Part shown: positions 6,436 through 64,000 of the stretch, one piece after another
How positions within the stretch are numbered: the stretch's first letter is position 1
How the letters are laid out: every line of letters starts with the position of its first letter
Assembly (NCBI GenBank): GCA_002005505.1
Contig: MVGU01000981.1
Span: forward strand, 196,443 to 260,442
Length of the DNA: 64,000 bases
Source: Botryococcus braunii
Taxonomy: Eukaryota > Chlorophyta > Trebouxiophyceae
Direction of reading: 5' to 3'
Notes under the pieces: generated by a model
What the model was told of the DNA's origin: nothing
What the model saw: only the letters and a program-made list of their open reading frames with translations
Database searches by the model: none
Program-made: the position numbers and the translations under genes

Positions 6436-6450
6436 TGTTAGGTTATGGGC
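6426..6450 (-). other. U5/PBS inverted repeat in Copia-1
   Basis: On the minus strand GCCCATAACC lies inside the LTR end, then 5 nt (TAACA), then GGTTATGGGC of the PBS: a perfect 10 bp stem with a 5-nt loop across the LTR/PBS junction. The LTR arm equals the anticodon-loop sequence of the primer tRNA. Confidence 0.85.
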
Positions 6451-7130
6451 TTGGCGTATTCCTGTGTGGTGGCAGCACGGAGGGTGTTAGACCAGTGTCG
6501 GCTCTACTGTGCGAAGAGAAGTAGAGAAGGAGACACTGTCAATCAAGGACTGATTGGCAACGTGAGTGAAGCACCCGAAGTGCTGTGATAGTCCCAATCA
6601 AGTCTATTACAACATGCACTCTATCACTCTCGTAACAACGGAATTCAAACTACCCTAGTCTGTTCTCACTCAGTTATGGGCAGTCTCATTGTCCGATGAA
6701 CGGAAAGTCAAGCACATACACCTAACATGATAAACTAAAAGCATTCAGAGCCTCAAACAAGCTATCCTAACTACACACACATTACCTGTGTGGTGGCAGC
6801 ACGGAGGGTGTTAGACCAGTGTCGGCTCTACTGTGCGAAGAGAAGTAGAGAAGGAGACACTGTCAATCAAGGACTGATTGGCAACGTGAGTGAAGCACCC
6901 GAAGTGCTGTGATAGTCCCAATCAAGTGCCTTGCCTTGCTGCGCAGCCACCACTACCTTCTTGCAACAAACGTGTGTGTAACTTGCGTTATCGCTATCCA
7001 CATTCAAATGTACATAACCTAGTGCTGAGTCACGTCTCTGCCCTATTTGTCTTGTATTATTGTCTCTGGCGGAATTGCCAATATTACTCCTCTGAGGGAA
7101 AGGCACTAATTATTATTATCTATTACAACA
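6436..7130 (-). repeat. 5' LTR of Copia-1
   Basis: 695 bp. On the minus strand it begins TGTTGTAATAG, with the head motif TTTCCCTCAGAGGAGTAATA shared with Copia-3 and Copia-5, and ends CCTAACA against the PBS. It holds a 142 bp internal duplication (6462-6927). Confidence 0.88.
6462..6927 (-). repeat. Copia-1 LTR exon-like block duplicated around a putative intron
   Basis: Minus strand. Copy 1 is 6786-6927 and copy 2 is 6462-6603, each 142 bp and apparently identical, starting ACTTGATTGGGAC and ending CACACAG. Copy 1 is followed by GTAATG (donor-like) and copy 2 by GAATACG (acceptor-like CAG|G). The predicted intron is 6785 to 6462, 324 bp, and contains copy 2. Confidence 0.72.
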
Positions 7131-9472: not shown

Positions 9473-9489
9473 TGTGAAAGGTTATGGGC
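9463..9489 (-). other. U5/PBS inverted repeat in Copia-2
   Basis: Minus strand: GCCCATAACC in U5, a 7-nt loop (TTTCACA), then GGTTATGGGC of the PBS, a perfect 10 bp stem. Same arrangement as Copia-1, although the surrounding LTRs differ. Confidence 0.85.
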
Positions 9490-10166
9490 AATCGGCTTTC
9501 CCTGTACAAAGCAGATAGGTCGTCAATAGACGAAGTTACTCCAGCTACAGTCCGTACGACTGTCTGCTGAGTGCCCCACACAACTGTAGGACAAGACTAG
9601 CATCTGGTGATGCCCAGCATCTTTCACAACCAGTTCCGTTACATCATTATCTTGTACACAAGCACCGATCAAGCAATCACTAGATAAGGCTCTAGACGGC
9701 TACGTTCAAGTACATGCCTATACTCCCTGAAGTCACTGTCCCTTATCTGTTTGAGTGACTACAGGGTACACTAAGCTTGTTCACTCTCACAATAGCAACA
9801 ATGATACAACACACACTGCCGCACCGTACCTGTACAAAGCAGACAGGTCGTCAATAGACGAAGTTACTCCAGCTACAGTCCGTACGACTGTCTGCTGAGT
9901 GCCACACACAACTGTAGGACAAGACTAGCATCTGGTACTGCCCAGCATCTTTCACAACCAGTTGGTATTCACTCCGGTGGGGCAGCCTTAAGAGTTCATC
10001 CGACAAACGTGTGATCTAGATAGGATTGTACCTTATGTTCGAAAACGTCCAGAATCTGCCGTGTCTCAAGGTACCTTATGTTCTCAATGGACCCATATCC
10101 TAATAGTGCACACATGAAGATCACTTAAAGCACAAGGCATTCAATAATAATGTTCAGAACTCAACA
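9473..10166 (-). repeat. 5' LTR of Copia-2
   Basis: 694 bp, minus strand TGTTGAG...TTTCACA. The outer end falls inside the Copia-3 LTR. It holds a 134 bp internal duplication. Confidence 0.82.
9502..9963 (-). repeat. Copia-2 LTR exon-like block duplicated around a putative intron
   Basis: Minus strand. Copy 1 is 9830-9963 and copy 2 is 9502-9635, each 134 bp with only a few differences, starting AACTGGTTGTG and ending TTTGTACAG. Copy 1 is followed by GTACGG and copy 2 by GGAAAGCC. The predicted intron is 9829 to 9502, 328 bp. Confidence 0.7.
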
Positions 10167-10362
10167 TATATGCTCCTCGAAGGGTTGAGGCACTTGATTG
10201 GGACATCAAAAGCACTTCGGGTGTTTGCTACTTCACTGTTGCCAGTCAAGTCATCGCATTCACAGTCGACACTGCTTGTTACTCGACACACAACAAGAGT
10301 GTCGCCGGGCTAAACACCCTCGTGCCGGGTCATACAGGGAACGCCGAACTCAGAAGTTTACA
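10167..10362 (+). repeat. Copia-3 5' LTR, right part
   Basis: Matches 23849-24048 of the 3' LTR apart from a 4-nt deletion and a few substitutions. Starts at the TATA region, where Copia-2 inserted, and ends GTTTACA. Contains a single exon-like block (ACTTGATTGGG ... CATACAG). Confidence 0.88.
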
Positions 10363-24387: not shown

Positions 24388-25266
24388 TGTTGAATGAATT
24401 GGTCAATACTGTACTTAGTGACATCCCCTGTCACATGCCATCAACAGCAGTGTAAACTATAGCCTTTATAGCCCTTTATGAACGGTATAGATCATACTCG
24501 TACCTCAATGACATAACACGTGACTTGTACGATATGCGTTCTCAATAGACATTACGTATGGTAGTACTTTAGGATCCCTGCAGTCCGAGCCATCCCTGGG
24601 CAGCCCAGGAACGGCTCGGTACTTGTCCGAAGCATGTTGGTATCCTTGACCAACCTCTACTGTTGGAGAGTGCTGTGTGCTGTTCCTGGAAACGTTGTAG
24701 CGTGGACGGTTTTTCCCACAGGCTACGAACTGACGCTGCCGTCGTGCCATCACTGCAGGTGTGTTTAGGATTCTCAAAGTCGTTCCAGATACGATTGTGC
24801 TCAAACATTCAGACCAGTTAGATATTACTGCTGTGTGCATTGATGAGAGTGCATGACGAGAGCGCACTGAATGTTTGACCTCATTGAGACTTATGTTGAC
24901 GTCCACCGTTGTGGCGGTAAGATAGTTTCACTGTACAAACATCACAAAGAGACCTTGCTGAGTTACTGATGAACTATTATTGTATTCTAGTGACGTAAAG
25001 TAGACATCGCAAGGCCTCTTTGGTGCTGAACTCTGCTATCAGGCAAGGCGTAGTGTTACGTGGTCTTTAGCAAGAGTGAGAGCAGTTAACATCATTTGTA
25101 AGACTTGTCCGAAGCATGTTGGTATCCTTGACCAACCTCTACTGTTGGAGAGTGCTGTGTGCTGTTCCTGGAAACGTTGTAGCGTGGACGGTTTTTCCCA
25201 CAGGCTACGAACTGACGCTGCCGTCGTGCCATCACTGCAGGTGACGCCGCAAGCAGAAATGCTTGA
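24388..25266 (+). repeat. 5' LTR of Copia-4
   Basis: 879 bp, TGTTGAATG...ATGCTTGA, identical by eye to 30745-31623. Small ORFs inside it occur in both copies and are not taken as genes. Confidence 0.93.
24621..25240 (+). repeat. Copia-4 5' LTR exon-like block duplicated around a putative intron
   Basis: Copy 1 is 24621-24758 and copy 2 is 25103-25240, 138 bp each and identical by eye, starting ACTTGTCCGAAGC and ending CACTGCAG. Copy 1 is followed by GTGTGTTTAGG, copy 2 by GTGACGCC and the U5 tail. The predicted intron is 24759-25240, 482 bp. The sequence is unrelated to the blocks of the other families, but the layout is the same. Confidence 0.7.
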
Positions 25267-32930: not shown

Positions 32931-33132
32931 TGTTATAATAGTGAAAGAACAATTAGTGACTTTCCCTCAGAAGAGTAATAGTGGCCAGGCTTCTCTGAAG
33001 CAATCATTGTGAACAATCTCAGAGGTTGAGTAATGGATGGCAGAACTCTAGAGTTCTGCCATAATTGATCTAGACTGATTCCACTTAGGAGAAAGAGAGT
33101 AATGCAATTTGACACGTTCTTGCTAGAAAGGA

Positions 33133-33138
33133 TATAAG
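33133..33138 (+). promoter_or_regulatory. TATA box in Copia-5 5' LTR
   Basis: GGATATAAGC; TATAAG starts 28 bp upstream of the block start ACTTG at 33161, the likely transcription start. Confidence 0.7.
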
Positions 33139-33360
33139 CAGCCGGCATGAAGGGCTCGGCACTTGTTTGGGACTGAAAGAGCACTCCGGGTGCTTATCTC
33201 TGATCAGTTGCCACAAGTGTCAACACATAGTCGGGCTCTGCTTGCTCTCCTACACACAGCAAGAGACCCGACCGAGCTTAACACCCTTCGTGCCGGGACA
33301 TACAGGTAAAGTGCTGCATCTTAGTGTGACTTGTATGAACAATTGATTAGGAAGAGGTCT

Positions 33361-33849
33361 TGTAGTGAGGTGACGCGTGCGGTGCCGCGTCTGCGTACCT
33401 CATGCGGCTCGCCTTTCGAATTCTGTGCAGGTCTTTCGAATTACGTGCACGCCTGCATGTGTGCGCATGTGTCTTCACGCACGTCGTACTACGAGAGGCT
33501 TCACAATATAGGATGTTCATGAAATGTCCAAAAGGATGCCCTCTCGTCATCCTTCTCGTGGTGCTCGCGAGAGCATCTTATAGAAGGGCGATGTAGCCGG
33601 GTTCACCACAAGTTGGACTCACACTTCGAGAGACACACTTATCTTTGGGGCCTGGATATATCTGTTGCATATTATATTGTATTGGCGTTGGCCATATTGT
33701 TTATTGGAGACTCGGAATCGCCTGCGTGAGGAGGAGCTGCGTATTGTAAGAGGAATCGGCGTCACGTTTACTGTCTCGCGGTGTCACCCCTTCCTTAAAC
33801 CCTAGTATCTCTTATTATTAAACTTGCATACACGTCTCCCTTTGTTTCA
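33361..33849 (+). repeat. 5' LTR of Gypsy-3
   Basis: 489 bp, TGTAGTGAGG...TTTGTTTCA, partner of 35034-35522. Confidence 0.93.
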
Positions 33850-33851
33850 TT

Positions 33852-33863
33852 TGGTATCGGCGA
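33852..33863 (+). other. Primer-binding site of Gypsy-3
   Basis: TGGTATCGGCGA, 2 nt past the LTR. Confidence 0.85.
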
Positions 33864-33884
33864 TTAGGGTTTAGGGTGGACGTG

Positions 33885-34141
33885 GAATTTTGGAAGCATT
33901 GCATGACCCGCCTCATGTTGGCCACACTGGAGTAACTCGCATGTATGAGCTTCTCACAAGGGAATGGTATTGGCCTGGAATGTATGAGGATGTCAAAGCC
34001 TATGTTGCTCATTGTGACTCTTGCCAGCGGGTCAAGGCTCGGAATACTTTGCCTGCTGGTCTTCTTCACCCTTTACAAATACCAGTCAGGAAGTGGCAAA
34101 GTGTGTCTATGGACTTTATTACCAACCTCAAGTGGAAATGA
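33885..34141 (+). pseudogene. Gypsy-3 integrase zinc-domain fragment
   Basis: The leader joins directly to LEALHDPPHVGH ... YCPG-like integrase N-terminus (HHCC: H-x4-H, CDSC) and ends in MDFITNL. It closely matches 52420-52660 of Gypsy-2. Everything from gag to RNase H has been deleted between the leader and this piece. No credible start. Confidence 0.85.
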
Positions 34142-34257
34142 TGCTATTTGATTTGTCGTGGATAGGCTTAACAAGTGTGCTCATTTTGCTGCTACAACAA
34201 TGAATGCTGATGCTTATACTCTAGCACAATTGTTAAGGACATGGGTGTGGATGTATC

Positions 34258-34509
34258 GTGGATCCCGGGTGTGGTGGCATTGTGGACCACAAGCCACTCA
34301 TGGACGACCGCGGCCGCACTCTCTACGACCCGGATGGAACCCCGCATATGCAATACCTTGTGCGATGGAAAGGTTACACGCCCGACGACGATACGTGGGA
34401 ACCACTCACGAATTTTACGCGCTGCCGCCAGCAAGTGGAGCAGTACAGAGGGAGTCACGGGTTGCCTCCATTGCCTCCCAGGGGCACAATCCCTCGGATT
34501 CGCCCTTAG
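34258..34509 (+). pseudogene. Gypsy-3 C-terminal chromodomain fragment
   Basis: About 80 codons matching the Gypsy-2 C-terminus (DHKPLMDDRGRTLYDPDG, then YLVRWKGYTPDDDTWEPL). The integrase core between this and the upstream fragment is deleted. Ends in a normal stop. Confidence 0.85.
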
Positions 34510-35020
34510 GCCCCGTCGACCGGTTGGCCCTCCTTGGAGGGGTCTCTCTGTATGGCCATATGGACTGTGGATAGGCTAGGGTAAGGCTGCCTTACCCGGT
34601 AGGGTGGACCATGGGTCCCTTACCTGGATAGATCATTGTGCACATTAGGCTCGACATGGCCGCTTCACTTCATTGCCACTGGACACGGAACTTTGGACTC
34701 TGGAACTTTGGACTCGAACTTGGTTTGAACCTCACTTGAACTTTGCCTTATGGACTTGTGGACTTCTCGACTTATGAACTTCTAGACTTTTGGCTCTACG
34801 TGGACTTAGCTGTTTCCTCCGTTTCGTCTTTTGTCATGTTTGTCATGAATGATACTTATTCTTATTTCTATATGGTGGGGACCCCGATACGCAGCGATCG
34901 GCTGGGGTCTGGCAACACGGGAGGCGGGTTGCCCGTAGGTAGTATTCTGAGTCTCCGCATGTTGGAAGGTCTTTTGTTGTTTTGTTGCGCTCTGCCTTCT
35001 GCGCGGGGACGCACAGGAAT
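34510..35020 (+). other. Gypsy-3 3' untranslated region
   Basis: About 510 bp. Degenerate GGACTT/GAACTT repeats at about 34680-34810, then the conserved motif. No gene. Confidence 0.7.
34874..34922 (+). other. Conserved 3' motif in Gypsy-3
   Basis: GGTGGGGACCCCGATACGC, then CGGCTGGGGTCTGGCAACAC and GGGAG. Nearly the same as in Gypsy-2. Confidence 0.7.
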
Positions 35021-35033
35021 AGGGGGGGGAGTA
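35021..35033 (+). other. Polypurine tract of Gypsy-3
   Basis: AGGGGGGGGAGTA before the 3' LTR. Confidence 0.85.
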
Positions 35034-35522
35034 TGTAGTGAGGTGACGCGTGCGGTGCCGCGTCTGCGTACCTCATGCGGCTCGCCTTTCGAATTCTGTG
35101 CAGGTCTTTCGAATTACGTGCACGCCTGCATGTGTGCGCATGTGTCTTCACGCACGTCGTACTACGAGAGGCTTCACAATATAGGATGTTCATGAAATGT
35201 CCAAAAGGATGCCCTCTCGTCATCCTTCTCGTGGTGCTCGCGAGAGCATCTTATAGAAGGGCGATGTAGCCGGGTTCACCACAAGTTGGACTCACACTTC
35301 GAGAGACACACTTATCTTTGGGGCCTGGATATATCTGTTGCATGTTATATTGTATTGGCGTTGGCCATATTGTTTATTGGAGACTCGGAATCGCCTGCGT
35401 GAGGAGGAGCTGCGTATTGTAAGAGGAATCGGCGTCACGTTTACTGTCTCGCGGTGTCACCCCTTCCTTAAACCCTAGTATCTCTTATTATTAAACTTGC
35501 ATACACGTCTCCCTTTGTTTCA
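35034..35522 (+). repeat. 3' LTR of Gypsy-3
   Basis: 489 bp, followed by ggtct. Confidence 0.93.
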
Positions 35523-35825
35523 GGTCTAGATAAGAGTATTAGAGTGTTGCTAATGCTTGGCTCATCGAACAATGGTAATGCGGACTATCTGTCGATGCGT
35601 AGAAGAGGTAGTTTGAATTCCTTGGCGTTGAGAGAGAGCAAGAAGTAATGTAATGACTTGTTTGGGACTGAAAGAGCACTCCGGGTGCTTATCTCTGATC
35701 AGTTGCCACAAGTGTCAACACATAGTCGGGCTCTGCTTGCTCTCCTACACACAGCAAGAGACCCGACCGAGCTTAACACCCTTCGTGCCGGGACATACAG
35801 GGAACATTACGCCCAGATTTGTACA

Positions 35826-35839
35826 GGTTATGGGCCCAC
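35826..35839 (+). other. Primer-binding site of Copia-5 (half initiator tRNA-Met)
   Basis: GGTTATGGGCCCAC directly after LTR end TTTGTACA. Confidence 0.85.
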
Positions 35840-41692: not shown

Positions 41693-41883
41693 TGTTATAA
41701 TAGTGAAAGAACAATTAGTGACTTTCCCTCAGAAGAGTAATAGTGGCCAGGCTTCTCTGAAGCAATCATTGTGAACAATCTCAGAGGTTGAGTAATGGAT
41801 GGCAGAACTCTAGAGTTCTGCCATAATTGATCTAGACTGATTCCACTTAGGAGAAAGAGAGTAATGCAATTTGACACGTTCTT

Positions 41884-43621: not shown

Positions 43622-43632
43622 ATTCTGAAGCC

Positions 43633-44601: not shown

Positions 44602-44603
44602 TT

Positions 44604-44616: not shown

Positions 44617-44705
44617 CGGTCACTTCTGCTTTGATTGGCTTGACAAAACTTTTTTTAAGCATCTTTGCTTTTCGGTTTGGGGTTGCGCTCCTTTGTTTGG
44701 GTTTA

Positions 44706-46193: not shown

Positions 46194-49100
46194 AGGTGTG
46201 GGCCTTCGCTTGGCGATGTAGGCCCTGCATGTTTGACGTCTATTCATGCATTTGCTTGTCAAGAAGCCGTGTCACAGCTTGTGATGGTGTTTCCTGCCGA
46301 GGTGCAGGGGAGCAAGGCCACGGCGATGCTGGACTCTGGAGCTTCTTGCAATGTGGTCAGTGCAGACTTTGCTAAAGCCCTTCACTTGGAGATTGTGCCG
46401 CCGAAGGGGGATTCTTTAAGCATTAAGTTGGCTGACGGGAGAACTGTAAACCATATCGGATGTGCTGTCTTAGACATTGTCATCCAGGGGGTACAGTTTG
46501 CTAAGGTGTCGTGTCTTGTGCTAGACTTTGCCATGGATTGGAATGTGCTGTTGGGGACTCCCTGGCTAAAGACATTCCGTGCAAATCTCATGTTTGAAGA
46601 GGACACCGTTAGGGGGTATACAAGAAAGAACAAGCCGTTCGTTTTGCGTTGCCCGCCTAAGGAGGAGAGGCCTTTGAAGGGTTCAGAAGTGGAGGATGTG
46701 CCTAGATTGGTTTTGTCTGCGGTGCAGGCTAGAAGGTTAAGCAGAAAAGGCTGTCAGTCCTTTCTGGCAATTGTAACCGATCTGTCTACCGATCCGAATG
46801 TCTCCATTCCTTCTCCTAACTCTCCTGTTGTTGACATACTCAGTGAATTCCAAGATGTTTTCCCTGAAGATGTCCCGCACCTTCCGCCTGAGAGGCAAGG
46901 GGTTAGACACACTATACCCTTGAGCGATCCACATGCTCGTCCACCGTCTCGTCCGTTGTACCGGCTTTCACGCTTAGAGTATGATGAGGCGTTACGCCAG
47001 ACAAAGCTATTGTTGGACAAAGGGTATATCCAGCCGTCTACATCACCCTATGGTGCGCCCATTCTTTTTGTGCAAAAGAAGGATGGAAGCCTCCGGATGG
47101 TCATTGATTACCGAGCTTTGAATCGACAGACGGTCAAGAACAGGTATCCGATGCCTCGTATCGATGATACTCTTGATCAACTGCAGGGTTCTACAGTGTT
47201 CTCTAGTCTTGACCTCACGTCTGGCTATCACCAGATCCGGATCACAGATGAGGATATGCCAAAGACAGCTTTCAGAACACCCGCGGGGTTGTTCGAGTGG
47301 CGGGTTTTGCCATTTGGGCTGACTAATGCCCCGGCCACGTTTCAAACTGCCATGAATGCTATCTTTGCTCCTTACCTGCACAAGTTTGTGCTCGTGTACC
47401 TTGATGACATCCTCATCTACAGCAAGTCCATTGAAGAGCATAGGGAGCATCTCCGCAAAGTCCTTGAACTGTTGCGGCAGCATAAGTTGTATGCTAACCT
47501 AAAGAAGTGCTCTTTCGCCAAGGATGAGCTGGAGTACTTGGGCCATTTAGTCTCAGCCGATGGGATTAAAGTGGACCCACGTAAGGTGGCTTCAGTTGCT
47601 AATTGGAGCACACCGAAGAATGTTGGCGAGTTGCGGTCTTTCCTGGGGCTGGCAACTTACTTTCGCAAGTTTGTTCGCAATTTTGCAGCACTTGCATCGC
47701 CACTGTACAGACTCCTACGCCAAGGTGTGACCTGGGTATGGAGTGCTGGGTGTGTTCGGGCGTTTACCGAGATTAAACATGCCTTGACACATGCACCTTG
47801 CTTAGCGTATCCTGACTTCTCAAAGCCGTTTGAGGTCCATTGCGATGCGTCTTTGGCAGGGTTGGGGGCCGTGTTGTACCAGGAGGGTCGCCCAGTTGCC
47901 TACGAGAGTCGTCGCTTGACTCCCGCTGAGGTTAACTATCCTACTGGGGAGCAAGAACTTCTAGCTGTGGTGCATGCATTGACAGTCTGGAGGTGCTACC
48001 TAGAGGGGGCCCCTGAGTTTCGTGTAGTCACGGACCACAAGGCTATCACTTATTTGGACACTTTGCCTACTTTAAGTAGACGGCAAACCAGGTGGGCAGA
48101 GTTCCTTTCAAGGTTCAATTTTCGCATGGACTATGCCCCCGGCACGTCCAATGTGGTGGCTGACGCTCTGAGTCGGCATCCGTCCGACTATGAGGCTCCT
48201 TGTCCAATCATCAATGGCGTGGTGATTGGTGGGTGTTCGCACCCGGCGCACCGTTGTCTGCCAACGCTCTCTCTTTGTGCCTTGGTTGGCACTATCCGCT
48301 CTGCGGGGGAGGGGAGTGCTGCGGCCGGGGTTGCTCTGTCTTGGAAGGACAAATTTGTCCAGGGTTATACTCAAGACCCATGGTTCCAAGATAAGCAGAA
48401 TGTTGAAGGTCTGCTAGACTTTGACGGCTTCCTTCTAAGGGAGGGGAAGGCCGTGGTTCCGGATGCTTTCGGGCTGCGAGCTCACATCCTCAAGGAACTG
48501 CATGATAGCCCGTATGCTGGCCATCAAGGAGTGAAGAAAACCTTGGCCCTGGTAAGGCGCCATTATTGGTGGCCTACCATGCTTGCTGACATCGAACGTT
48601 ACGTGCTAACGTGCCACTTGTGTCAGAAGAACAAGGCTCGGAACACTTTGCCTGCGGGGTTGCTGCAACCTTTACAGTTGCCGCTGAATCCTTGGCACAC
48701 GGTGACTATGGATTTCATTACCCAATTGCCTAGGACAGGCAAGGGTCATGATGCCATTTTCGTCGTAGTGGATAAGCTGACCAAGATGGTGCATCTTATG
48801 CCCACAACCACCAAGGCTACGGCTGAGCAGACGGCTAAGCTGTACGTTGACAATGTGTGGAAGTTGCATGGTGTTCCCCAAGTGGTGGTGTCCGATAGAG
48901 ATAAGCTCTTCACCAGCCACTTTGCTAGAGCTTTGTGTCAATCCATTGGGACTCGACAAGCCATGTCAACAGCCTACCATCCGCAGACGGATGGGCAGAC
49001 TGAGAGAGTGAATCGAGTGCTCGAGGACATGCTACGCATGTATGTGGCCAAGTCCCAGGATGATTGGGATGAGAAGTTGGTCTGTGCAGAATTCGCGATC

Positions 49101-49790
49101 AATAATTGCGATCACGAGTCCACGGGGTCCTCGCCGTTTTTGCTGAACTACGGGTTTCACCCCCACCTGCCAGTCGCGATTCTCCCCAATAGACGGGTAC
49201 CTGGTGCGTCTGACTTTGTTCAGGGCATGCAACGCCTCATCAATGAGGCCAGGATGACCCATCGGGTGGCCACTGCGAGACAAGCGCAGTATGCCAACAC
49301 CAAACGAAGGGACGTTCAATTTGGTGTGGGGGACTGGGTCCTCCTCTCCTCAAAGAACCTCCGTTTCAAGGTGGGCACGCCCAAGCTCCTCCCGCGTTGG
49401 GTAGGGCCGTTCCAAGTCGTGAAACGTGTGGGTACCCAAGCTTATGAGCTTGACCTCCCGGCACGATGGAGGATTCATGATGTCTTTCATGTCTCCAACC
49501 TGGAACGGTACCGGCGGGATGGTTCGATGCAACCCCCACCACCTGCCGAGGTGCTGGAGGGGGAAGATGAGTACGAGGTGGAAGCCTTAATGGACCACCG
49601 TCGTGTCAATTCACGTGGCCGTCCCAAGTATGAGTACCTTGTCCGTTGGAAGGGTTACTCGTCAGAGCATGACACCTGGGAAGAGGAACGGAATTTGACA
49701 AATGCTCCCAATGTTGTAAAGGGATACTGGGACACAGTCAACGCACGGGCACCACGAGGCGGGGCACGCCGTCGTGGGCAGGTTGACTAG
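46194..49790 (+). CDS. pol: Pol of Gypsy-4: PR-RT-RNase H-IN-chromodomain, in frame after a TGA
   Basis: The frame of Gag continues without another stop from the TGA to 49790. The first ATG in Pol (46281) lies well inside the N-terminal region, so expression by readthrough of the UGA is the natural reading. Domains: protease AMLDSGASCNVV (nt 46324); RT with LVYLDDILIYS (nt about 47395); RNase H DASLAGLGAVLYQ (about 47843) and TDHKAITYL; integrase zinc site HDSPYAGHQGVKKT ... CHLCQ (about 48500), core MDFITQLP, VVSDRDKLF, TDGQTERVNR; then a canonical chromodomain (YEVEALMDHR ... YLVRWKGYSSEHDTWE, nt 49570-49735). All catalytic residues present. Confidence 0.93.
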   Translation, partial: RCGPSLGDVGPACLTSIHAFACQEAVSQLVMVFPAEVQGSKATAMLDSGASCNVVSADFAKALHLEIVPPKGDSLSIKLADGRTVNHIGCAVLDIVIQGVQFAKVSCLVLDFAMDWNVLLGTPWLKTFRANLMFEEDTVRGYTRKNKPFVLRCPPKEERPLKGSEVEDVPRLVLSAVQARRLSRKGCQSFLAIVTDLSTDPNVSIPSPNSPVVDILSEFQDVFPEDVPHLPPERQGVRHTIPLSDPHARPPSRPLYRLSRLEYDEALRQTKLLLDKGYIQPSTSPYGAPILFVQKKDGSLRMVIDYRALNRQTVKNRYPMPRIDDTLDQLQGSTVFSSLDLTSGYHQIRITDEDMPKTAFRTPAGLFEWRVLPFGLTNAPATFQTAMNAIFAPYLHKFVLVYLDDILIYSKSIEEHREHLRKVLELLRQHKLYANLKKCSFAKDELEYLGHLVSADGIKVDPRKVASVANWSTPKNVGELRSFLGLATYFRKFVRNFAALASPLYRLLRQGVTWVWSAGCVRAFTEIKHALTHAPCLAYPDFSKPFEVHCDASLAGLGAVLYQEGRPVAYESRRLTPAEVNYPTGEQELLAVVHALTVWRCYLEGAPEFRVVTDHKAITYLDTLPTLSRRQTRWAEFLSRFNFRMDYAPGTSNVVADALSRHPSDYEAPCPIINGVVIGGCSHPAHRCLPTLSLCALVGTIRSAGEGSAAAGVALSWKDKFVQGYTQDPWFQDKQNVEGLLDFDGFLLREGKAVVPDAFGLRAHILKELHDSPYAGHQGVKKTLALVRRHYWWPTMLADIERYVLTCHLCQKNKARNTLPAGLLQPLQLPLNPWHTVTMDFITQLPRTGKGHDAIFVVVDKLTKMVHLMPTTTKATAEQTAKLYVDNVWKLHGVPQVVVSDRDKLFTSHFARALCQSIGTRQAMSTAYHPQTDGQTERVNRVLEDMLRMYVAKSQDDWDEKLVCAEFAINNCDHESTGSSPFLLNYGFHPHLPVAILPNRRVPGASDFVQGMQRLINEARMTHRVATARQAQYANTKRRDVQFGVGDWVLLSSKNLRFKVGTPKLLPRWVGPFQVVKRVGTQAYELDLPARWRIHDVFHVSNLERYRRDGSMQPPPPAEVLEGEDEYEVEALMDHRRVNSRGRPKYEYLVRWKGYSSEHDTWEEERNLTNAPNVVKGYWDTVNARAPRGGARRRGQVD

Positions 49791-50206
49791 GGGAAACACA
49801 GCAGCACGAGCCTGTCAAGCTGCGTCACCGGGGGGTCGTGGTTTACCCATACGTTCGCGTGATCACAGAACGTCCCCTGACTTGGTGGCTAAGTGTCGTC
49901 CAGCCCCGGCCCCTACTATCCGCCCTGAAGCTAGCAACTTCACTGCTTCTTCATGGGAACCTGTACACGTGGAGTGTACATTTGTTCACGCCGACGACTG
50001 CCCTTTGGGCCCCGTCACTGCGGGATTCTGGTCTAGGCGTACCATAGAGATACCTCAGGCAAGTGTACACCCAGGCTGCGGTCTGGTGTCTGGAGGAGAC
50101 TCGCCGGCTCAAAGTGTGATGTATAGAAGTGTGGCAGTGACCTTCTATACACCTCTGCCTGTGACTGCGGCTTGCTTTGGCAGGCCTCCCGGGAGCTCGG
50201 TCACCT
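49791..50206 (+). other. Gypsy-4 3' untranslated region
   Basis: About 415 bp between the pol stop and the PPT. No convincing gene; small overlapping ORFs look like chance. The GGGGACCC motif of the other gypsies is not evident. Confidence 0.6.
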
Positions 50207-50219
50207 AGGAGGGGGAGAA
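50207..50219 (+). other. Polypurine tract of Gypsy-4
   Basis: AGGAGGGGGAGAA directly before the 3' LTR. Confidence 0.88.
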
Positions 50220-50382
50220 TGTAGCGCGCGGCAGGCAGACTCCGCCAGGGTTAGCCCCGTCGGATGCCAAGCGGTACATTAGGCCAGGCGTAGCCTCTTT
50301 AGGCTTCGCGCTAGCACATACGGTGTGGCGCTCGGGCCACACTGGCACTTTCATCGGTGCAAACAATTCGGATAACTTTACA
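50220..50382 (+). repeat. 3' LTR of Gypsy-4
   Basis: 163 bp, the same as 44439-44601 by eye, followed by gatag. Confidence 0.95.
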
Positions 50383-50387
50383 GATAG

Positions 50388-53300
50388 GAATGGAAAAGGA
50401 TGGAAGGGTCAAGATGTTTGGAAGGTTTGTTTGTATACTGTGCTTGTGAATGAGCAGGCTGAACTGGTGGACATCACCGGGGAGGACGCCTCAAGTGAGG
50501 CCGACCTGGCGGACACCGACAAATCTATGGACGACACCCCCGTCGTCACAAAACCCCCCTGTAGTACCGGTATGACTTTCACTCATCAAATAAATGACAT
50601 GTTGGAAGGCAAGCCACAGGCCCTGAAAGCCTTGTTACTTGCAAATGAGGACTTGCTTGCAAAACAACTCCCGGGGTTACCCCCGGAGCGGGAAGTGTTT
50701 CACACAATAAATTTGGAAGAAGGACATCGGCCCCCCAATAGGCCCGCGTACCGTCTTGCTCCAAGTGAGCTTGCGGAATGCGAAAAAACGGTTGATGAGT
50801 TGTTAAAATTGGGATTGATCAGGCCAAGTTGCTCACCATTTGCATCACCTGTTTTGTTTGTTAGAAAGAAGGATGGAAGTTTGCGTATGGTAATAGACTA
50901 CCGTCCCCTGAATAAAATTACCATCTCGGATAGGTACCCTCTCCCCAGAATTGACGATCTGTTGGATAGGCTTAAGGGAGCCAAGGTGTTTTCGAGCTTG
51001 GACTTGTTGTCTGGGTACCATCAAGTGCGACTTCGCAAGGAGGATGTGCCTAAAACTGCCTTCAGGACCCCTTTTGGCTTGTACGAATTTCTTGTACTTC
51101 CCTATGGTTTGACCAACGCGCCCGCGACATTTCAACGGCTTATGAATGAGGTTTTTCACGACTTTATAAGGGAAGGCTTTGTGGTTGTATACTTGGATGA
51201 TGTGCTCATTTATAGCAAAACGGAAGAGGAACACCTTCTGCAGTTGGACAGAGTTTTCACCCGTCTACGCGAACACCAACTCCTGGCAAAACTTGTCAAA
51301 TGCTCTTTCTTTGAGAAACAATTGAAATACTTGGGACACATCATTGGGGAAAATGGGTTGGAAGTGGATATGGATAAAGTCAAGGTGGTGCAGGAGTGGC
51401 CTACGCCCACAAACGTAACGGAAGTTAGGAGGTTTCTTGGGTTGTCTAATTACTTTCGAAAGTTTATTCAGAACTACAGTATCCTGGCAACCCCATTGAC
51501 AGCTCTCTCTGGGGCAAAAGCACCTTGGAAGTGGGGACAGGAACAACAGGAAGCATTTGACAACATAAAGGAAGCTTTGGTAAGTGCCCCTATCTTAACA
51601 CTCCCGGACGCACGTCGGCCATTTAAGGTAGTGTGCGATGCATGCGATTACGGCGTGGGAGCTGTGCTATTTCAAGATGGGAAGGTTTGTGCGTATTTCA
51701 GTAAAAAGTTGGGAGCAAGCGAGAGGAACTACAGTGCCACGGAACGGGAGTTATTGGCTGTAGTGTATGCTCTCACGGAATGGAGATGTTATTTGTTAGG
51801 TAAGCCAGTAACGGTGGTGACGGATCACAAGTGCAACACCTTTTTGGGTCAACAGGTGGGGCTTAGTCCTCGGAGGGCTCGGTGGGCCGAGCGCCTGCAG
51901 GAGTTTGAGATTGAATGGGTATGGGAACCGGGCAAGACCAACATTGCGGGTCCGCTCTCCAGGTGTCACTTCACTCAACACCCTGGACCTGGGGGGAGGG
52001 ACAATGGGGCTGCTGTGGCCGGGGCTGCCCTCCGGCGCAAGCGTCGGCGCACCAGTCCGGACTCCCTCACCCCCTCCAGCCGGGATGTCGAGGGTACCCT
52101 CACAGCTCGGGTCCGCAAGGTCCCCAAGGTCACGCTCCCGGGGCCCGCTCACGAGACCCCAAGCTCCCTCGGCACGATGGAGCAAATCGGGTTGGCCAGC
52201 CCGAGTGAGCTTACCCGCGAGACTGATGGGTACGAATCCCTACTTGGCAAACTTGAGAAGGCTTACACATACGATCCGTGGTTGGCAGCGCGTGCGAATA
52301 GAAGGAAGGTTAGTCAAAAGGGAGGCTTTTGGGAGAGGAATGGACGGAAATATGTTCCTGCATTGTTTGAGGAAAGGAAAGATGGGGAACTTGTCGTGGA
52401 GAACCTACGACGTGAAATTTTGGAAGCTTTACATGATCCACCTCATGTTGGTCACCCTGGAGTAACTCGCATGTACGAGCTTGTCACAAGGGAATGGTAT
52501 TGGCCGGGAATGTATGAGGATGTCAAAGCCTATGTTGCTCATTGTGACTCTTGTCAACGAGTCAAGGCTCGGAATACTTTGCCTGCTGGTCTTCTTCACC
52601 CCTTACAAATACCAGCAAGGAAGTGGCAAAGTGTGTCTATGGACTTTATTACTAACCTCCCAAAGACCCCAAGTGGACATGATGCGATTTGGGTTGTTGT
52701 GGATAGGCTTAGCAAGTGTGCTCATTTTGCTGCTACAACCATGAATGCTGATGCTTATACTGTAGCACAATTGCTAAGGACACGGGTGTGGATGTATCAT
52801 GGGTGTCCGGAGGAAATTGTTTCTGATCGGGATCCCCGCTTTGTGAGTAAGTTTATGAAGGCATTACATGAACTTACGGGATGTCGACCTGCCCTTTCAA
52901 CTGCCTTCCATCCTCAAACGGATGGTCAAACCGAAAGGACAAACCGCATCTTGGGAGATTATCTGAAACACTATGTGGCGGATCATGGGAAGGACTGGGA
53001 TAGTTACTTGCCTGAAGCAGAATTCGCATATAACAACGCATGGCAAACCTCAATAAACACCACACCCTTTCGGCTCACGTATGGCCAAGATCCAAACGTG
53101 CCGTTTGCGAATGGCCACTTGGGCAAAACTGGAATTGGGAATGCGGATGACTTTGTGCGGAAGATGGGCTCAGACATCCGACGGGCACAAAAGTTTTTGG
53201 CTGCAGCCCAAGACCGTCAGGCCGCCTATGCGAATAGGCGCCGTAGCAATGTCACCTTCGCCACCGGTGACTTCGTGCTGGTGGACCGGGACTTCTTTGC

Positions 53301-53769
53301 AGTGCACCGCAAACTTCCACACAAGTTTGCGCCTCGCCGCGTGGGGCCCTTCAAGGTCCTTGACTCTCCCGGTCCCAATGCTTACCGTCTGGACTTCCCC
53401 GACGGCTACGACCACTACCACCCCGTAGTCAATGTGAATTTCCTCACCCTCTACCGCACTGCAGAGGGCGCCCGCGTGCGCACGCCGCCGCCGCCCCCGC
53501 ACCTCGTCAACAATCACATTGAGTATGAGGTTGAGACCATTCTGGATCACAAGCCGCGCACCGATGACCGCGGCCGTGCTCTGTACGACCCGGACGGGTC
53601 CCCTCATCTGCAGTATCTCGTCCGCAGGAAGGGCCACGATCCCAGCGAGGACAGTTGGGAGCCACTCAACCATTTCACGCGTTGCCACAAGAAAGTGGAA
53701 GAATACAGAGAGAGTCACGGGCTCCCGCCATTGCCTCCCAAGGGCACGACTCCTAGGGTCCACCCTTAG
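50388..53769 (+). pseudogene. pol: Gypsy-2 pol, RT-RNase H-IN-chromodomain part
   Basis: Resumes the Gypsy-2 frame after Gypsy-4 and is open for about 1,127 codons. An open frame reaching back into the Gypsy-4 LTR is a chance fusion. RT (SCSPFASPVLFVRKKDGSLR; YLDDVLIYS near nt 51190), RNase H (DACDYGVGAVLF, nt 51640; TDHKCNTF), integrase zinc site HDPPHVGHPG ... CDSCQ (nt 52434), core MDFITNLP, VSDRDPRF, TDGQTERTNR, GPF-type tail, and a chromodomain-like end (LDHKPRTDD ... YLVRRKGHDPSEDSWE). The domains look functional; only the upstream TAA and the insertion disable it. Confidence 0.9.
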
Positions 53770-54311
53770 GGTCCCGTCGACCGGTTGGCCCTCCTTGGAG
53801 GGGTCTCTCTGTATGGCCATATGGACTTTGGATAGGCTAGGGTAAGGCTGCCTTACCCGGTAGGGTTGACCATGGGTCCCTTACCTGGATAGATTTTTGT
53901 GCACATTAGGTGTATGGCCTTTTCACTTCACTACCACACCTGATCAATATGGTGCAATACTGGCCTAATAATGGACTATATGTGGAAATTGAACTCCCCT
54001 TGGACTCTGGACTTTTGGACATCTGGACTTTTAGCTCTGCCCTTGTGTCTCATTTTGGCTGTTCATCATGTGGACTTTCGTTTTTCTTTCAGTGTTTTGT
54101 CTTTTGTTCTGTTAGTCATGCCTGATCCTTGTTCTTATTGCATTCTGGTGGGGACCCCGATACGCAGCATTCGGCTGGGGTCTGGCAACACGGGAGGCGG
54201 GTTGCCCGTAGGTCTAAGTCTGAGTCTCCGCATGTTGGAAGGTCTTGTTCCTTTGTTTGTCTTGTCTGTTTGTTGTTGCGCTCTGCCTTCTGCGCGGGGA
54301 CGCACAGGAAT
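53770..54311 (+). other. Gypsy-2 3' untranslated region
   Basis: About 540 bp. Degenerate TTGGAC/GGACTT repeats near 53990-54030, then the conserved motif. Its first part is very close to the corresponding part of Gypsy-3 (from 34507). No gene. Confidence 0.7.
54147..54196 (+). other. Conserved 3' motif in Gypsy-2
   Basis: GGTGGGGACCCCGATACGC, then TCGGCTGGGGTCTGGCAAC and CGGGAG, about 130 bp before the 3' LTR. Confidence 0.7.
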
Positions 54312-54327
54312 AGGGGGGGGGGGAGTA
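54312..54327 (+). other. Polypurine tract of Gypsy-2
   Basis: A, a run of G, then AGTA, adjacent to the 3' LTR. Confidence 0.85.
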
Positions 54328-54777
54328 TGTAGTGAGGTGCCGCGTCAGCGCGACGCGTCTCACGTAGGATGTGCGCGTAGTTCATGTTTCTTCGTGCCCT
54401 TTGGGATACGAGTAGATCTCGTTGTCCTTATGTGTAGGAAAATGACTGTAATATCCTAGTGGGTCTCCTCTTGTCATCCATATCGTTATGCTCGCGAGAG
54501 CATGTCGTAGAGGGACGACGTAGCCGGATCCGCGCATAGGTGGACTAGGAACTCGGGTGGTTATCATTGTCTTTGGGTTTTCTGCAACAAGCGAGGCATC
54601 TAGAAAGTCCTATATTGTTCATTATATATTGTTCTTTGGAGACTCGGACGACCTGCGTGAGGAGGGCTGCGAACTTGTAACGGATTGGAACTTCGATTTC
54701 TACCTTCGGTGTCACCCTTGCCTGAAACCCTTGCGTAGCTTGTTATAAATCTTAGCTACACGTCTCACTTCGTTAAA
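54328..54777 (+). repeat. 3' LTR of Gypsy-2
   Basis: 450 bp, followed by target duplication ttctt. Confidence 0.92.
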
Positions 54778-54793
54778 TTCTTGATAGAAAGGA

Positions 54794-54799
54794 TATAAG
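54794..54799 (+). promoter_or_regulatory. TATA box in Copia-5 3' LTR
   Basis: GGATATAAGC; TATAAG starts 28 bp before the block start at 54822. Gypsy-2 inserted 11 bp upstream and so separated the core promoter from U3. Confidence 0.7.
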
Positions 54800-54821
54800 C
54801 AGCCGGCATGAAGGGCTCAGC

Positions 54822-55294
54822 ACTTGTTTGGGACTGAAAGAGCACTCCGGGTGCTTATCTCTGATCAGTTGCCACAAGTGTCAACACATAGTCGGGCTCT
54901 GCTTGCTCTCCTACACACAGCAAGAGACCCGACCGAGCTTAACACCCTTCGTGCCGGGACATACAGGTAAAGTGCTGCATCTTAGTGTGACTTGTATGAA
55001 CAATTGATTAGGAAGAGGTCTAGATAAGAGTATTAGAGTGTTGCTAATGCTTGGCTCATCGAACAATGGTAATGCGGACTATCTGTCGATGCGTAGAAGA
55101 GGTAGTTTGAATTCCTTGGCGTTGAGAGAGAGCAAGAAGTAATGTAATGACTTGTTTGGGACTGAAAGAGCACTCCGGGTGCTTATCTCTGATCAGTTGC
55201 CACAAGTGTCAACACATAGTCGGGCTCTGCTTGCTCTCCTACACACAGCAAGAGACCCGACCGAGCTTATCACCCTTCGTGCCGGGACATACAG
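54822..55294 (+). repeat. Copia-5 3' LTR exon-like block duplicated around a putative intron (uninterrupted copy)
   Basis: Copy 1 is 54822-54966 and copy 2 is 55150-55294, 145 bp each with one difference noticed (gcttaacacc against gcttatcacc). Donor CAG|GTAAAG at 54966/54967, acceptor ACATACAG|GG at 55294/55295, intron 328 bp, then a 25 nt tail to the LTR end. Confidence 0.77.
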
Positions 55295-55324
55295 GGAACA
55301 TTACGCCCAGATTTGTACAAGTTT

Positions 55325-57877: not shown

Positions 57878-60800
57878 TTAACGGCGGTCGTGATGGTACT
57901 TTCCAATAGTGTGGATGGATTGCCTCCACATCTTTCCTTTCGAATTTTGGATAACAAGCGTGCTGTCGTCGTAGTACTCCTTGAAGATGAAGGGGCCCAC
58001 AAAGGGTGGGGCCAACTTGTGCTTCTTTCGATTTTTGACGGCTATTAAGTCTCCAGGCTGTAGGTTACGTAGCCCTTCTTCAATCTCTCGTCCACGCTTG
58101 GTGGGCTTCAGCTTCTGAGCGTATTCTCTTTTCTGGCGCTCTTGGGCGCGCAAAATGTTGGTGTGGGCGGCTGCTATCTCCTCTTGATGTCTCTCGCGGG
58201 GGCAACTTCCTTCCCCGCCTGCCATGTCCGGCGTGGTGCTTGGTAAAGTCTTGTTGTCGATAGGTAGGGTGGCTGCTCTTCCGTACAACAACCGGAAGGG
58301 GCTGTGCTTGGTGGAACCCTGGGGACCCGTCCGGTACCCCAAAAGAATGTCAGGGAGCTTGCGGTCCCATGCTCCAGGGCTTTCAAGGGCGGCTTGCCCG
58401 AGCTTCTCTTTCAAAGTGCCATGAAACCTCTCGACGAGGCCGTTGGCTTGTGGATGGTATGGGCTGGTCTTTCTTACTTCTATGAAGCATTGGTCCATTA
58501 ATGTCTGGAATTCTCCTTGCCATTCCTGGCCATTGTCCGTAATAACAATCTGGGGGCAGCCGTGCCGTGCCAGAATCTCTTCTTTGAAAAATTTTGCGGT
58601 AGTCGATGCCTCTTTGTTTGGGATAATCTTGGCCTCCACCCATTTGGTGAGGTAGTCTATGGCGGCGGCAGTGTACACTTTCTCTCGCCCCGAGGGCGCA
58701 TCCATGGGTCCTGTCAGGTCCACTCCAATCATATGGAAGACCCCCGTGACGGCTACGGGAGTCAGCTCCACCGGCTTGGTGAGCTGAATGGTCCTGAATT
58801 GACATCCAGGGCAATGCTGGATGTATATTTTGACGTCGAGGGACATATCTGTCCAGTAAAAGCGCTCCTTTATAAGATGTATTGTACGGTTAATTCCGTA
58901 GTGGCCCATGTCATCGTGTAGCTCCTTAATGATGTCAAGTCTGTCCTCGTACCATGGTACGGTACGTGGGCCAAATCCTCTTGTGGCCTTTCGTACAAGT
59001 GGCCAGTTGCGGGTCCTCCATTCAATAGGGAATTCTTCGGCGGCAAAGTAGTAGTTCTGGGCCCGGCGTGCTATTCGCTTAGCATCCTTGCGGCTTGTCC
59101 CCGGTCGGTGTCGTTTGTCGGCGGCTAGGTAGTCAAGTACTTCTTCATCGTCCACAATGTCACGAGTGGGGACGGCATCTGCAATCTGGTCACATAAAGG
59201 GCATAGCCAGGGTCCCCTGGGTACCCGGGCCAGTGCAGGCTCCAAACAGTCGATGTGGTATCCGTGGTTGCAGAGGTCACATAGTAGCATGGTCTCCTCA
59301 TCATCTCTTCCCGTGCATACTTGGCACGGTACATCCTCCATAAGCGGCGGGCTGTCAAAACGCGTACGCGGTGTAGTCATAGGTTCTTGGCTGGCCAGGG
59401 CGGCAGAACGGCCAGATAAAGTCTCAGTAGGCGGCGGCAGGTCATAAACCTGTGTTGATTCAATTCTCATCTCCGGAAGGCAGCCCCTAGAAGGGGGTGC
59501 ATCATCCTCCGGGGTCGTCATGCGGCGTAGGGTTGGTGAAGTTACTATCTCTCCGCGCTGGGTGATGTCGGGCGCGGGTGGCTGGTAAGGTTGGTCCAGG
59601 TCCATTGTGTCTCCAGCAGGCGGCATTTTTTCCTTGTCAAAGGTCATGGTGTAGCAGCAGTGCATGCGGTTCTCCTCATTATTTTCTTCTTCTAGCGGCG
59701 GCGGCGGCGGCTCTTCACTGTAGTCTTCTCCAGGGGGCGGCATTAGGCGTAGACGAGAAAGGCAGTCCACATTCCCATGCAAGGTCCCCGAGCGGTGCTG
59801 GATGTCAAAGTCATATTCTTGTAGTTCGATGGCGTATCGTGCTAGCTTGCCGGACAAATTGCGTGTGGTGAGTAACCACTTTAAAGCTTTGTGGTCTGTT
59901 ACTATAGTAAATTGAACTCCATAGAGGTAGGGGCGGAATAGCTTCACGGCCCACACTATGGCAAGCAGCTCCCCATCCGTTGGAGAGTAGTTGAGCTCTG
60001 CTCCTTGTAAAGTTTTGCTGGCGTATGCGATCACATGGTCACCATCCTCGAGCTCCTGGCCCAGAATAGCGGCGGCGGCTCCGGGCTGCCAGTCAGTATA
60101 TAGCGTGAATTTCTTGTTGAAGTCGGGGTATCGTAGAAGCGGCGCATCCACTAGCATGGCCTTGATGGCTTCGAAGGCGGCTTGGCAGTCAGTGGTCCAG
60201 TTGAAAACAACCCCCTTTTTCGTGAGCCGCGTCAAAGGGGCAGATATGGCGGCCATGTTGTGCAGAAATCTCCTGTAGTAGTTTGCAAGTCCCAGAAAGG
60301 ACCTGACTTCGGTAACGTTCGTCGGCGGTGCTGCGTTGAGTACTGCCTCAACCTTGGAAGGGTTGGGCTTTATGCCTTGGGGCGTAATAATGTATCCTAA
60401 GTACAACACTTCACTGCAACATAACTCACACTTGGCTGGGTTGGCTCTAAAGCCCACCGCATGGAAGCGTTCAAGCACTAATTTCAGATGTGTGAGGTGG
60501 TCCTCAAATGTGCGGCTGTATATCAAACAGTCATCTAGATACATGACACAACACTTTCCTATTAAGTCTTGCAACAGAGTGTTAACAAATCTCTGTAGCG
60601 TAGCCGGGGCGTTACGCAAGCCGAACGGCATTGATACAAACTCGAATAAACCTTCTTTGGTAGTAAAAGCGGTTTTTGCACGGTCCTCTGGGGCTACTGG
60701 TATCAACCAGAAGGCTGACTTGCAATCAATCTTACTCAAGTATTCCAACCCCTGACCTAAGGAATCTAGGGTCTCATCTATCCTAGGCATGGGGTAATTG

Positions 60801-63800
60801 TCCCGTCTGGTAACTGCATTTAACGGACGGTAGTCAATACAAAACCGGACAGAGCCATCCGGCTTGCCTACTAACACAGGCGAACTAGACCAAGGAGAGC
60901 TGGAAGGCACTATCACTCCAGCCTCTAGCATTTTGTGAACTTCTTCCTCGATCACCTGATCCTCCGAACGGGACAAGCGATAAGGGCGTGTTTTAATGGG
61001 GACCGCATCCCCAGTGTCTATGCGGTGGTGCATCAAGGTGGTTCTTTCTTGTACTATACCTGGGGTGAATACATCCTTGTACTCCTGTACTAATCTCTCA
61101 ATCTCTTGTTCTCTCATAGGACCCAATTTTCGCATCCCGGTGGTGATTTTTAACATGGGATCGGGGTCCTGTTTCATCTTTTCAGTATTTATTATCTCTC
61201 TCAACTTCTGCATACCAGGATCTTCCTTCCTAAGGGAGGTGGGGACACGAACAATTATGACAGGCCATCTGGTAGGGCCATAACGACGTCGCGGACCTGC
61301 AGGGTCCTCTCCCGGGGCTGTGAAAAGCTGCACACCAGGAGGGTATTGTTTGATGATCTCAAATTGCTCCATTACTGTAGGAAACCAAGGGGCAGAAGGC
61401 CACCATGGTAGCACAAGTACTGCACTAGTGGTAAAGGGACTACTGGTGAAACACGCGAGGCAGTGATTCACAACTCTGTCAATTATCGAAAAAGGTGGGT
61501 TGCAATATATACTCAAATGGGTCCAGCTCTGCTGTAAACAATCGTCCTCAGCGGACCAAAACAAAGGTAACTGAGAGTTGTGACCTTGGAGATCACAACA
61601 TGCGTCGAGGTCAAAAGGACCCCACTGTGTTTCAATTTCTCTAAAAATATTAGTTTCTAACATCCAATCTTCAGTCATGTAAGGATGGGCTGCTAACTCA
61701 AGCTCTCGACCCTCGTTGCTTACTGTCGCATTGTAAATCTCAATCTCACTTTCGGAAGAGAAAGCCTCATGCTCCTCCGAATACTCTTCCTCCTCATCGG
61801 AGGGTTCAGTACTAGGAATTTCTCCCTCACTCCCGGAATAAAGGTCTGTTTCTTCCTGGGATTCTTCTGACAGATCGTTCTCAATGTTTAAAATTTCGTT
61901 CGGTAGGCCGGGTACCCCAGGTACCCTTGGGTCGGCGGGATGACCCGCGGGACCATCGAAATCTATTCCTGGGACTCTCGCGACGCAATATCGGTTGCTG
62001 CTTTTACTGGCAGGCATGACAGTGATGGGAACTCTCCCCATCATTTGTGGTTCTATTCGAAAAGACATCTCTTGCTTGGCGAAGCTTATCTCGGCGTGAG
62101 CCTGAGTAAGCCAATCTGTTCCAAGAAGTACATCATAAGAAGTCGCTCCACTAACAAATACGTCAATTGGTATTACTAAGCCCTCAACTCCTACAGGGAG
62201 CTTGCGAATAATGCCCCAAGGAGTGGACATTTTCCCATCTGCACACGAGTATCTAAGACGTGAAGGCTCAATCTGGTCAATTAAAATTAACTGTCGTGCG
62301 GCTGATTGTGAAATCATTGTGTTTGTGGCACCAGTATCAATGATGCCATCCTCAAATACTAAGTCATTAATGATTATAGGTACGGTGGCAACAGTAGTGT
62401 TCACCGGATTCCTTTGCAGGTTTGATTGTGGCATTTGCGTTGAAGGTGACTCCTCGTTGTCAGTCCTGCTAGTTGAGGTGGTCCCTCCAGAAACGTAGAT
62501 AACTTCCGCATTGGTAGCTCTCGCTGGCGGCGGGTCTCGCTGTCTGTCACGCAGGAATTCCTCACGGGACTCCTTTAGCTCCTTGATTGACTTGTTGAAC
62601 TCCTCCTCGCTGATGTGGTTCAGGTAGGTTTGTACGGTGAGCTTCATGGGAAGCCCTTTAATCTGCTGTATGGGTTCTGCCGTTGCTGGTGCGATGGCCA
62701 CTGGTCTCCTGTAGGCGGCGGGACGTGCGGCATTAGGTAGGGGAGGCAATCCTCCAAGGTCCACGTGTGGACGCGCTGCTGGCTCCCTTGCAGGTGCAGG
62801 CGGGGGTGCTGCTGGTGTTGTAGGTTCTACTGGTTGTCTCTGAGCTGGTGCAGGCCGAGGGGCGGCAGGCCTTGGTATGTTTCTTGGGTCAACTGTAGTG
62901 TCCTCCAGATTGTTGGGGCGGCGCCGAAGCAGCGGTTGGTTTGCTTCAGGTGGACTTTCTGCTGGCCTCTTAGTGGCATATATAGGATACACGGGAAAAG
63001 GATCCGTAAATCCATCATACATTATTGTGGCGTGCTCCGGGGGCGGTTGCTCGGGTTGCTGTTCATGCTCCACAAACTTGGTGAAGTTGGCTGTGGGCTG
63101 TCGCTGTAGTTCTGCGATTTGAATTCGTAGTCTCTCCATCTCCCTTGTGAGGGTGTCAATGTCATTAATTGGGGTTGGCGCAGGTGCCTCCCTTGGTGGG
63201 TTGATTGGAGCAATCTGTCTAGGCGGTACTGCTGGCTGCTGGTTGCGTCGCTCCGGAAAGTCTCGCTGACGCTGCCAATTTCTGTTGTCTCTATTGTTCT
63301 CTCTCTGATTTTGCTGCGGCGGCGGGCGTGCTGCACGCTGATCCACATTGTCATCGGCGCGGCGATTCCATTGCTCAATCCTCTCGCGCACCGGCACTTC
63401 TATGGTCTGGTTTGAATACATGCCCCCTAAAGGCGCGTGTCCGAATGTTTGTTCATAATCAGCTGCCAATTTTATAATGTCGGCTAACGCTCCTTTGCCG
63501 GGGTAGGTCATTTGAACCCTCTCACGTAGATGTGGTACTAGACCTTTAACAAATAGTTGTGTTATCATTCTGGGTGGCAGAGAGTTCTGCAAGTAACCCA
63601 CTAATTTCCTAAATCTGTCAGCATAACTCCTAACAGTCTCATTGGATTGTTGTGTGCATGTGTCTAGTTTCACCATAAGGGTGTCCTCGTCGAGGCCAAA
63701 TCTTTCGAGAAAAGCCTCCTTGCATTCATCCCAGTCATTAAAGTCATCTTGATTTGCACGAAACCAGGTATATGCTTCTTCACGCATTGCGTGTTTGACA

Positions 63801-63850: not shown

Positions 63851-64000
63851 AGACTCAAGCCACTGAAAAGGGTCTTCTATGGCTTTCCATAGAAAAATTC
63901 TAAAAAAAAATCTCCATAGAAAAAAAAGCGCTCAGAGCCAACAACTATAGAGATTACGCTCGGGTCACAACAATAATGTCAGATATGCTTACTGGCTATT
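63851..64000 (-). other. Upstream coding extension and possible splice acceptor of Gypsy-5 Gag
   Basis: The Gag frame continues upstream (EDPFQWLES before residue 1) to a stop near 63937 without an ATG. A T9 run followed by AG at about 63900 resembles a 3' splice site, so the first Gag exon may lie outside the window. Confidence 0.4.

Follow-up and report, generated by a model that had tools for sequence, protein, structure and literature searches.

Introduction

Elements that copy themselves through spliced RNA should lose their introns, and it is this loss that classically demonstrates an RNA intermediate. In the plant elements Ogre and EVADE the introns sit in the internal region, outside the LTR. 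Drosophila copia and Volvox Osser belong to the Ty1/Copia elements that use an internal fragment of tRNA-iMet as primer, and we know of no intron and no cDNA copy of the leader in the LTRs of either.

Ogre and EVADE are described as LTR retrotransposons with spliceosomal introns that serve subgenomic RNAs, and an intron inserted into Ty1 as lost through retrotransposition (PMC12786077). For HIV-1 and the foamy viruses, U1 at the major splice donor suppresses the poly(A) site of the 5' LTR (PMC12789967).

Here we analysed a 64,000-nt stretch of the Botryococcus braunii genome (contig MVGU01000981.1, positions 196,443 to 260,442; hereafter the window) that holds the element Copia-5. We consider it very likely that in Ty1/Copia LTRs of this kind a spliceosomal intron survives reverse transcription, the LTR carrying one or more unspliced first exons and, downstream of them, their spliced cDNA. 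The initial annotation of this DNA knew of no LTR built in such a way. We likewise found no LTR with an intron and its cDNA copy in the open-access literature; subscription journals lay largely outside this search, and priority is unproved.

Results

The Copia-5 element and its two-copy LTR

Target duplications of AGTTT at 32926-32930 and 55320-55324 define the ends of Copia-5 (Table 1). The LTR termini are TG...CA (TGTTATAATAG...TTTGTACA) with the 5-bp duplication on both sides, as in Ty1/Copia elements. The order of its domains, integrase upstream of reverse transcriptase (RVT_2), makes Copia-5 a Ty1/Copia element: in the frame 36412-40377, rve spanned 586-687 and RVT_2 began with a match at 1261-1304, both matches being below the curated cut-off, and the remainder of RVT_2 was found in 40289-41671. 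Copia-5 shares this domain order with copia and Osser, and also a PBS complementary to the anticodon arm of tRNA-Met. The PBS adjoins the left LTR, and the right LTR abuts the interrupted target gene. The extended complement of the PBS occurred at three places in the genome, two of which were called as tRNA-Met (CAT) genes and the third not as a tRNA. A protein search gave a best identity of 73% among the 120 listed of 6834 matches. The viral contigs searched for relatives gave no protein match, and at five viral-contig loci with CAGGTTATGGGCCCAC (three of which share one sequence) nothing LTR-like was seen in the 700 nt before each.

The right LTR had been described as uninterrupted. This is correct for the part downstream of 54783, where the stretch from the TATA box through copy 1, spacer and copy 2 to the LTR end is unbroken, but neither Copia-5 LTR is whole. 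A gypsy-like element (41884-54777, duplication TTCTT) cuts the right LTR upstream of the TATA box, and another insert (33361-35522, duplication GGTCT) cuts the left LTR within the spacer.

Our coordinates bear out the initial annotation in its description of two direct copies of 145 bp, 183 bp apart, the first beginning 28 bp past a TATA box. The copies of the right LTR are thus 328 nt apart from start to start, and they differ at a single position, 54942 A in copy 1 and 55270 T in copy 2. The annotation had also placed a donor, GTAAAG, after copy 1 and an acceptor where copy 2 ends, and both motifs were present: copy 1 ends GGACATACAG|GTAAAG (donor-like, CAG|GTAAAG) and copy 2 ends GGACATACAG|GGAACA, its acceptor-like CAG being separated by 25 nt, as the annotation had stated, from the LTR end at 55319. 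Together with a YTNAY motif, the GT...AG ends fit a predicted spliceosomal intron. The mismatch at 55270 falls on the adenine of this branch-site-like motif (TTAAC to TTATC); both copies of the left LTR have the usual A.

Table 1. Features of Copia-5 and of related LTRs in the window
Feature	Position	Strand	Basis or remarks
Left Copia-5 LTR	32931..35825	+	copy 1 33161-33305, copy 2 35656-35800, mutually identical
PBS GGTTATGGGCCCAC	35826..35839	+	complementary to tRNA-Met anticodon arm
Right Copia-5 LTR, 5' part (U3)	41693..41883	+	100% match to 32931-33121
Right Copia-5 LTR, rest	54783..55319	+	target duplication AGTTT at 55320-55324
TATAA box	54794..54798	+	28 nt (counted from first T, 54794) before copy 1
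Copy 1, predicted exon 1; first base is predicted transcription start	54822..54966	+	145 nt
Predicted intron, GTAAAG ... ACATACAG (spacer and copy 2)	54967..55294	+	328 nt; ends from sequence
TGTAA, predicted poly(A) signal	55143..55147	+	sequence; 7 nt before copy 2
Copy 2, predicted exon-1 cDNA, ending at predicted 3' splice site	55150..55294	+	145 nt
Tail, from block to LTR end	55295..55319	+	25 nt
LTR of another Copia element, layout as in Copia-5	24388..25266	+	copies from 24621 and 25103; donor GCAG|GTGTGT
LTR end, same PBS and two-copy layout as Copia-5	6436..6927	-	copy 1 6927-6786, copy 2 6603-6462
LTR end, same PBS and two-copy layout as Copia-5	9473..9963	-	copy 1 9963-9830, copy 2 9635-9502
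Single-copy LTR end, block joined directly to tail	10192..10362	+	no spacer; no TGTAA just before block

The two-copy layout across the genome

A pattern that combined the sequence before the predicted start, the beginning of the block and the tail at the two-copy spacing matched the genome 65 times, and its reversed control not once; the Copia-5 layout therefore exceeds chance. Counted among these matches are 12 same-strand pairs of two-copy LTRs at 6.5-7.1 kb, as expected of elements with the predicted intron in both LTRs.

The 14-mer of the PBS had 1898 matches in the genome (reversed control, 0). Ninety of 100 listed PBS places, which come from the first contigs and were not randomly drawn, were combined with the window and further loci to give 101 PBS instances, and 41 instances whose last 300 nt equalled those of another were dropped. 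A repeated block was present in 49 of the 60 distinct upstream stretches that were left. The other 11 comprised seven single-copy LTRs, whose block runs directly into the tail, the left Copia-5 LTR (its copy 1 lies beyond the insert) and L074, L082 and L084, in which no block start could be recognised. Across all 101 instances, a 40-nt seed taken near the PBS had two occurrences in 86 and a single occurrence in 13; one further instance had three, and another, which held two LTRs, had four. The seed does not work on the clade-2 LTR L027. The two-copy layout is thus common to many Copia families of this genome, and the single-copy LTRs (7/60) indicate that it is not always kept.

Clade 1: block borders, predicted signals and likeness of the copies

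Clade 1 comprised 45 LTRs, or 44 with two copies once a three-copy LTR (L089) was set aside. AG|GT after copy 1 together with AG at the end of copy 2 was found in 42 of the 44; the acceptor is changed in L009, and L071 is degraded. These 42 LTRs fell into ten groups at 90% identity. Copies within one LTR were 0.997 alike (28/42 exact, lowest 0.97), and the likeness between groups was 0.43-0.83 with a mean of 0.60. Within groups, copy 2 mirrored 170 of the 217 pairwise differences seen in copy 1; mirroring was weakest in L016 (37/75) and L013 (2/6). One of the ten, L068, is a form of another group with a 41-nt deletion, and the deletion is present in both of its copies. The block boundaries and this joint evolution of the copies can be read directly from the DNA.

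Within 12 nt upstream of copy 2, TGTAA was present in 41 of the 42 LTRs (L072 being the miss); it preceded copy 1 in none. The UGUAA of chlorophytes is most frequent about 17 nt upstream of the cleavage site (PMC1868727), and we regard the TGTAA before copy 2 as a predicted poly(A) signal of the chlorophyte type. With the peak near -17 and the motif just before copy 2, cleavage would be expected about 10 nt inside copy 2. L072 lacks the TGTAA, and its copy 2 starts 12 nt upstream of the point at which that copy starts in related LTRs; this LTR looks as if an upstream start had served. A YTNAY motif lay 18-38 nt before the acceptor in all ten group representatives (2.6 expected from shuffles). 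Near-identical elements could be compared in nine groups with at least three members: the base preceding copy 2 varied in four groups, and the base preceding copy 1 in none. A TATA word within 60 nt before copy 1 was found in only two of the ten representatives.

One might suppose that transcription begins at copy 2, copy 1 being a remnant of an earlier LTR, since copy 2 adjoins the PBS in the manner of an ordinary R-U5 and single-copy LTRs exist. A remnant, however, would not remain 99.7% alike. We rejected a start at copy 2, which is hardly credible, on the placement of the signals: the TATAA of Copia-5 precedes copy 1, and TGTAA precedes copy 2 and never copy 1.

Because copy 1 has no internal intron in clade 1, we infer splicing in these LTRs, Copia-5 included, from the shared layout, the AG|GT and AG ends, the branch-site-like motif and the renewal of the copies.

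Clade 2: second copies made of exons

A second group of elements, with a different LTR tail, had 89 PBS sites by pattern. We read it at 14 LTRs, four from the sample and ten fetched additionally. In all 14 the second copy is the first copy minus its introns, of which there are two internal ones in 11 LTRs and one in three, each of 85-92 nt. GT..AG stood at the exact joining point at 24 of 25 internal junctions (the other is in L113), so that these sequences qualify as spliceosomal (GT-AG) introns by their removal from the exon-only copy; the LTRs form about four families, so that the junctions do not count as independent. After the last exon comes GT in the first copy, and the second copy runs on into the tail. 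The second copy is immediately preceded by TGTAA in 11 of the 14, with TGTGA in L110 and TGTAG in L111 and L113. The copies of L036 differ by 8-9% in two exons, and L107 has other sequence upstream of exon a. At L050, from 850 bases before the PBS, a clade-2 element starts exactly at the end of a clade-1 LTR and replaces the PBS of that element.

These second copies bear on whether the repeats are a plain tandem duplication of promoter or enhancer sequence, with no splicing, whose likeness is kept by gene conversion of DNA or unequal crossing-over. Direct repeats are common in LTRs, and the three-copy L089 and the single-copy LTRs are forms that unequal crossing-over could leave; in clade 1 alone, a DNA deletion between the copies and an RNA route would yield the same product. 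Duplication at the DNA level cannot, however, remove introns, so that the clade-2 second copy must derive from spliced RNA. Nor does it account for block edges that lie at AG|GT and just past TGTAA across groups. Plain tandem duplication is thus very unlikely, and we rejected it on the clade-2 second copies.

The absence of the GT..AG introns from the clade-2 second copy indicates that the leader RNA was spliced before reverse transcription and that the copy adjoining the PBS is its cDNA. We take these exon-only second copies, which are a matter of aligned sequence, as the decisive evidence for splicing ahead of reverse transcription. They also lend support to the initial annotation, which had proposed a splice from copy 1 to the end of copy 2 in Copia-5. 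That proposal did not extend to the occurrence of the layout in many families, to its upkeep by strand transfer or to the TGTAA within the predicted intron.

A model for restoration of the intron

It is highly probable, in our judgement, that the intron is self-restoring: the LTR would store an intron-bearing leader beside its own cDNA, and reverse transcription of the spliced RNA would rebuild the introns in each cycle. We infer the start site, the poly(A) site and the order of the transfer steps as follows. In the 5' LTR, transcription would begin with the first base of copy 1. The intron, consisting of the spacer and copy 2, would then be spliced from the 5' leader to give exon 1 joined to the tail and PBS, which would also take the TGTAA signal out of the 5' end of the RNA. 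At the 3' LTR, cleavage and polyadenylation would occur about 10 nt into copy 2, and here the intron would stay, because the RNA would stop short of the acceptor that ends copy 2. Minus-strand strong-stop cDNA, made of the tail and exon 1, would anneal by its 3' terminus to the beginning of copy 2, where the RNA ends, and extension would copy the spacer, copy 1 and U3 to produce new LTRs with the order U3, copy 1, spacer, copy 2, tail. Copy 2 would thereby be newly made from spliced exon 1 in each cycle and the intron restored, with the left edge of copy 2 set by the transcription start and its right edge by the position of the splice donor. Such strand transfer would maintain the layout and account for an acceptor end that repeats exon 1.

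The same steps would give rise to the variant forms. A ragged transfer junction would leave a variable base before copy 2, and single-copy LTRs (7/60) would arise when the cDNA lands on copy 1. The rare three-copy forms would come from unspliced RNA: L089 has the order block, spacer, block, spacer, block upstream of the PBS, the product expected from an unspliced strong-stop template. Cap-proximal exon definition is a likely reason why the 5' LTR would be spliced and not polyadenylated. Against the model stand the TATA word in only two of ten representatives, the weak mirroring in L016 and L013, the divergence of L036 and the seven single-copy LTRs.

Some of these points would suit a weaker form of the model, in which splicing and cDNA transfer are real but occasional, the packaged RNA is mostly unspliced and transferred in the normal way, and renewal of copy 2 is infrequent. 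The single-copy LTRs, the 8-9% divergence between the copies of L036 and the one three-copy LTR, which fits an unspliced template, could all be read in this way. An unspliced template ending in copy 2 should, however, add one copy per cycle, and only one of 45 clade-1 LTRs has three copies; moreover, the copies are identical in 28 of 42 LTRs, and TGTAA marks copy 2 and not copy 1. We regard merely occasional splicing as unlikely, and favor renewal of copy 2 in every cycle.

Discussion

One to three LTR introns seem to be retained in a large number of Copia families, and the sequences suggest how. Unlike the introns of Ogre and EVADE, which are not known to be rebuilt in replication, the LTR intron proposed here would be. 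As in the Ty1 experiment, spliced RNA would template reverse transcription; the intron inserted into Ty1 is gone for good, whereas in our model it would be restored from the 3' LTR. The predicted donor of these LTRs lies close to the 5' end, and their predicted poly(A) signal is present in both LTRs and needed only at the 3' end, features in which they resemble HIV-1 and the foamy viruses. The genomic RNA of those viruses stays unspliced, whereas here the intron that holds the signal would leave the RNA that is copied.

If the model is correct, splicing may remove a premature 5' poly(A) signal, and perhaps boost expression, without loss of the intron. This would answer an old problem of LTRs, how the 5' LTR can disregard a poly(A) signal on which the 3' LTR relies. 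In genome studies, repeats in direct orientation within an LTR may then prove to be leader cDNA, and LTR splicing of this kind can escape short reads.

Other LTRs in the window

With the same PBS as Copia-5, the window contains three more two-copy LTRs and one single-copy LTR (Table 1). The Copia element at 24388 has a second LTR, 30745-31623, identical to the first. The sequence GCCCATAA, complementary to the PBS just downstream, occurs in 21 of 49 LTR tails, including those at 6436-6461 and 9473-9501 in the window, and could form a hairpin with the PBS. On the minus strand at 57881-63931 lies a gypsy-like gag-pol frame of 2017 codons that also has a Dam-type DNA adenine methyltransferase domain and a PHD finger.
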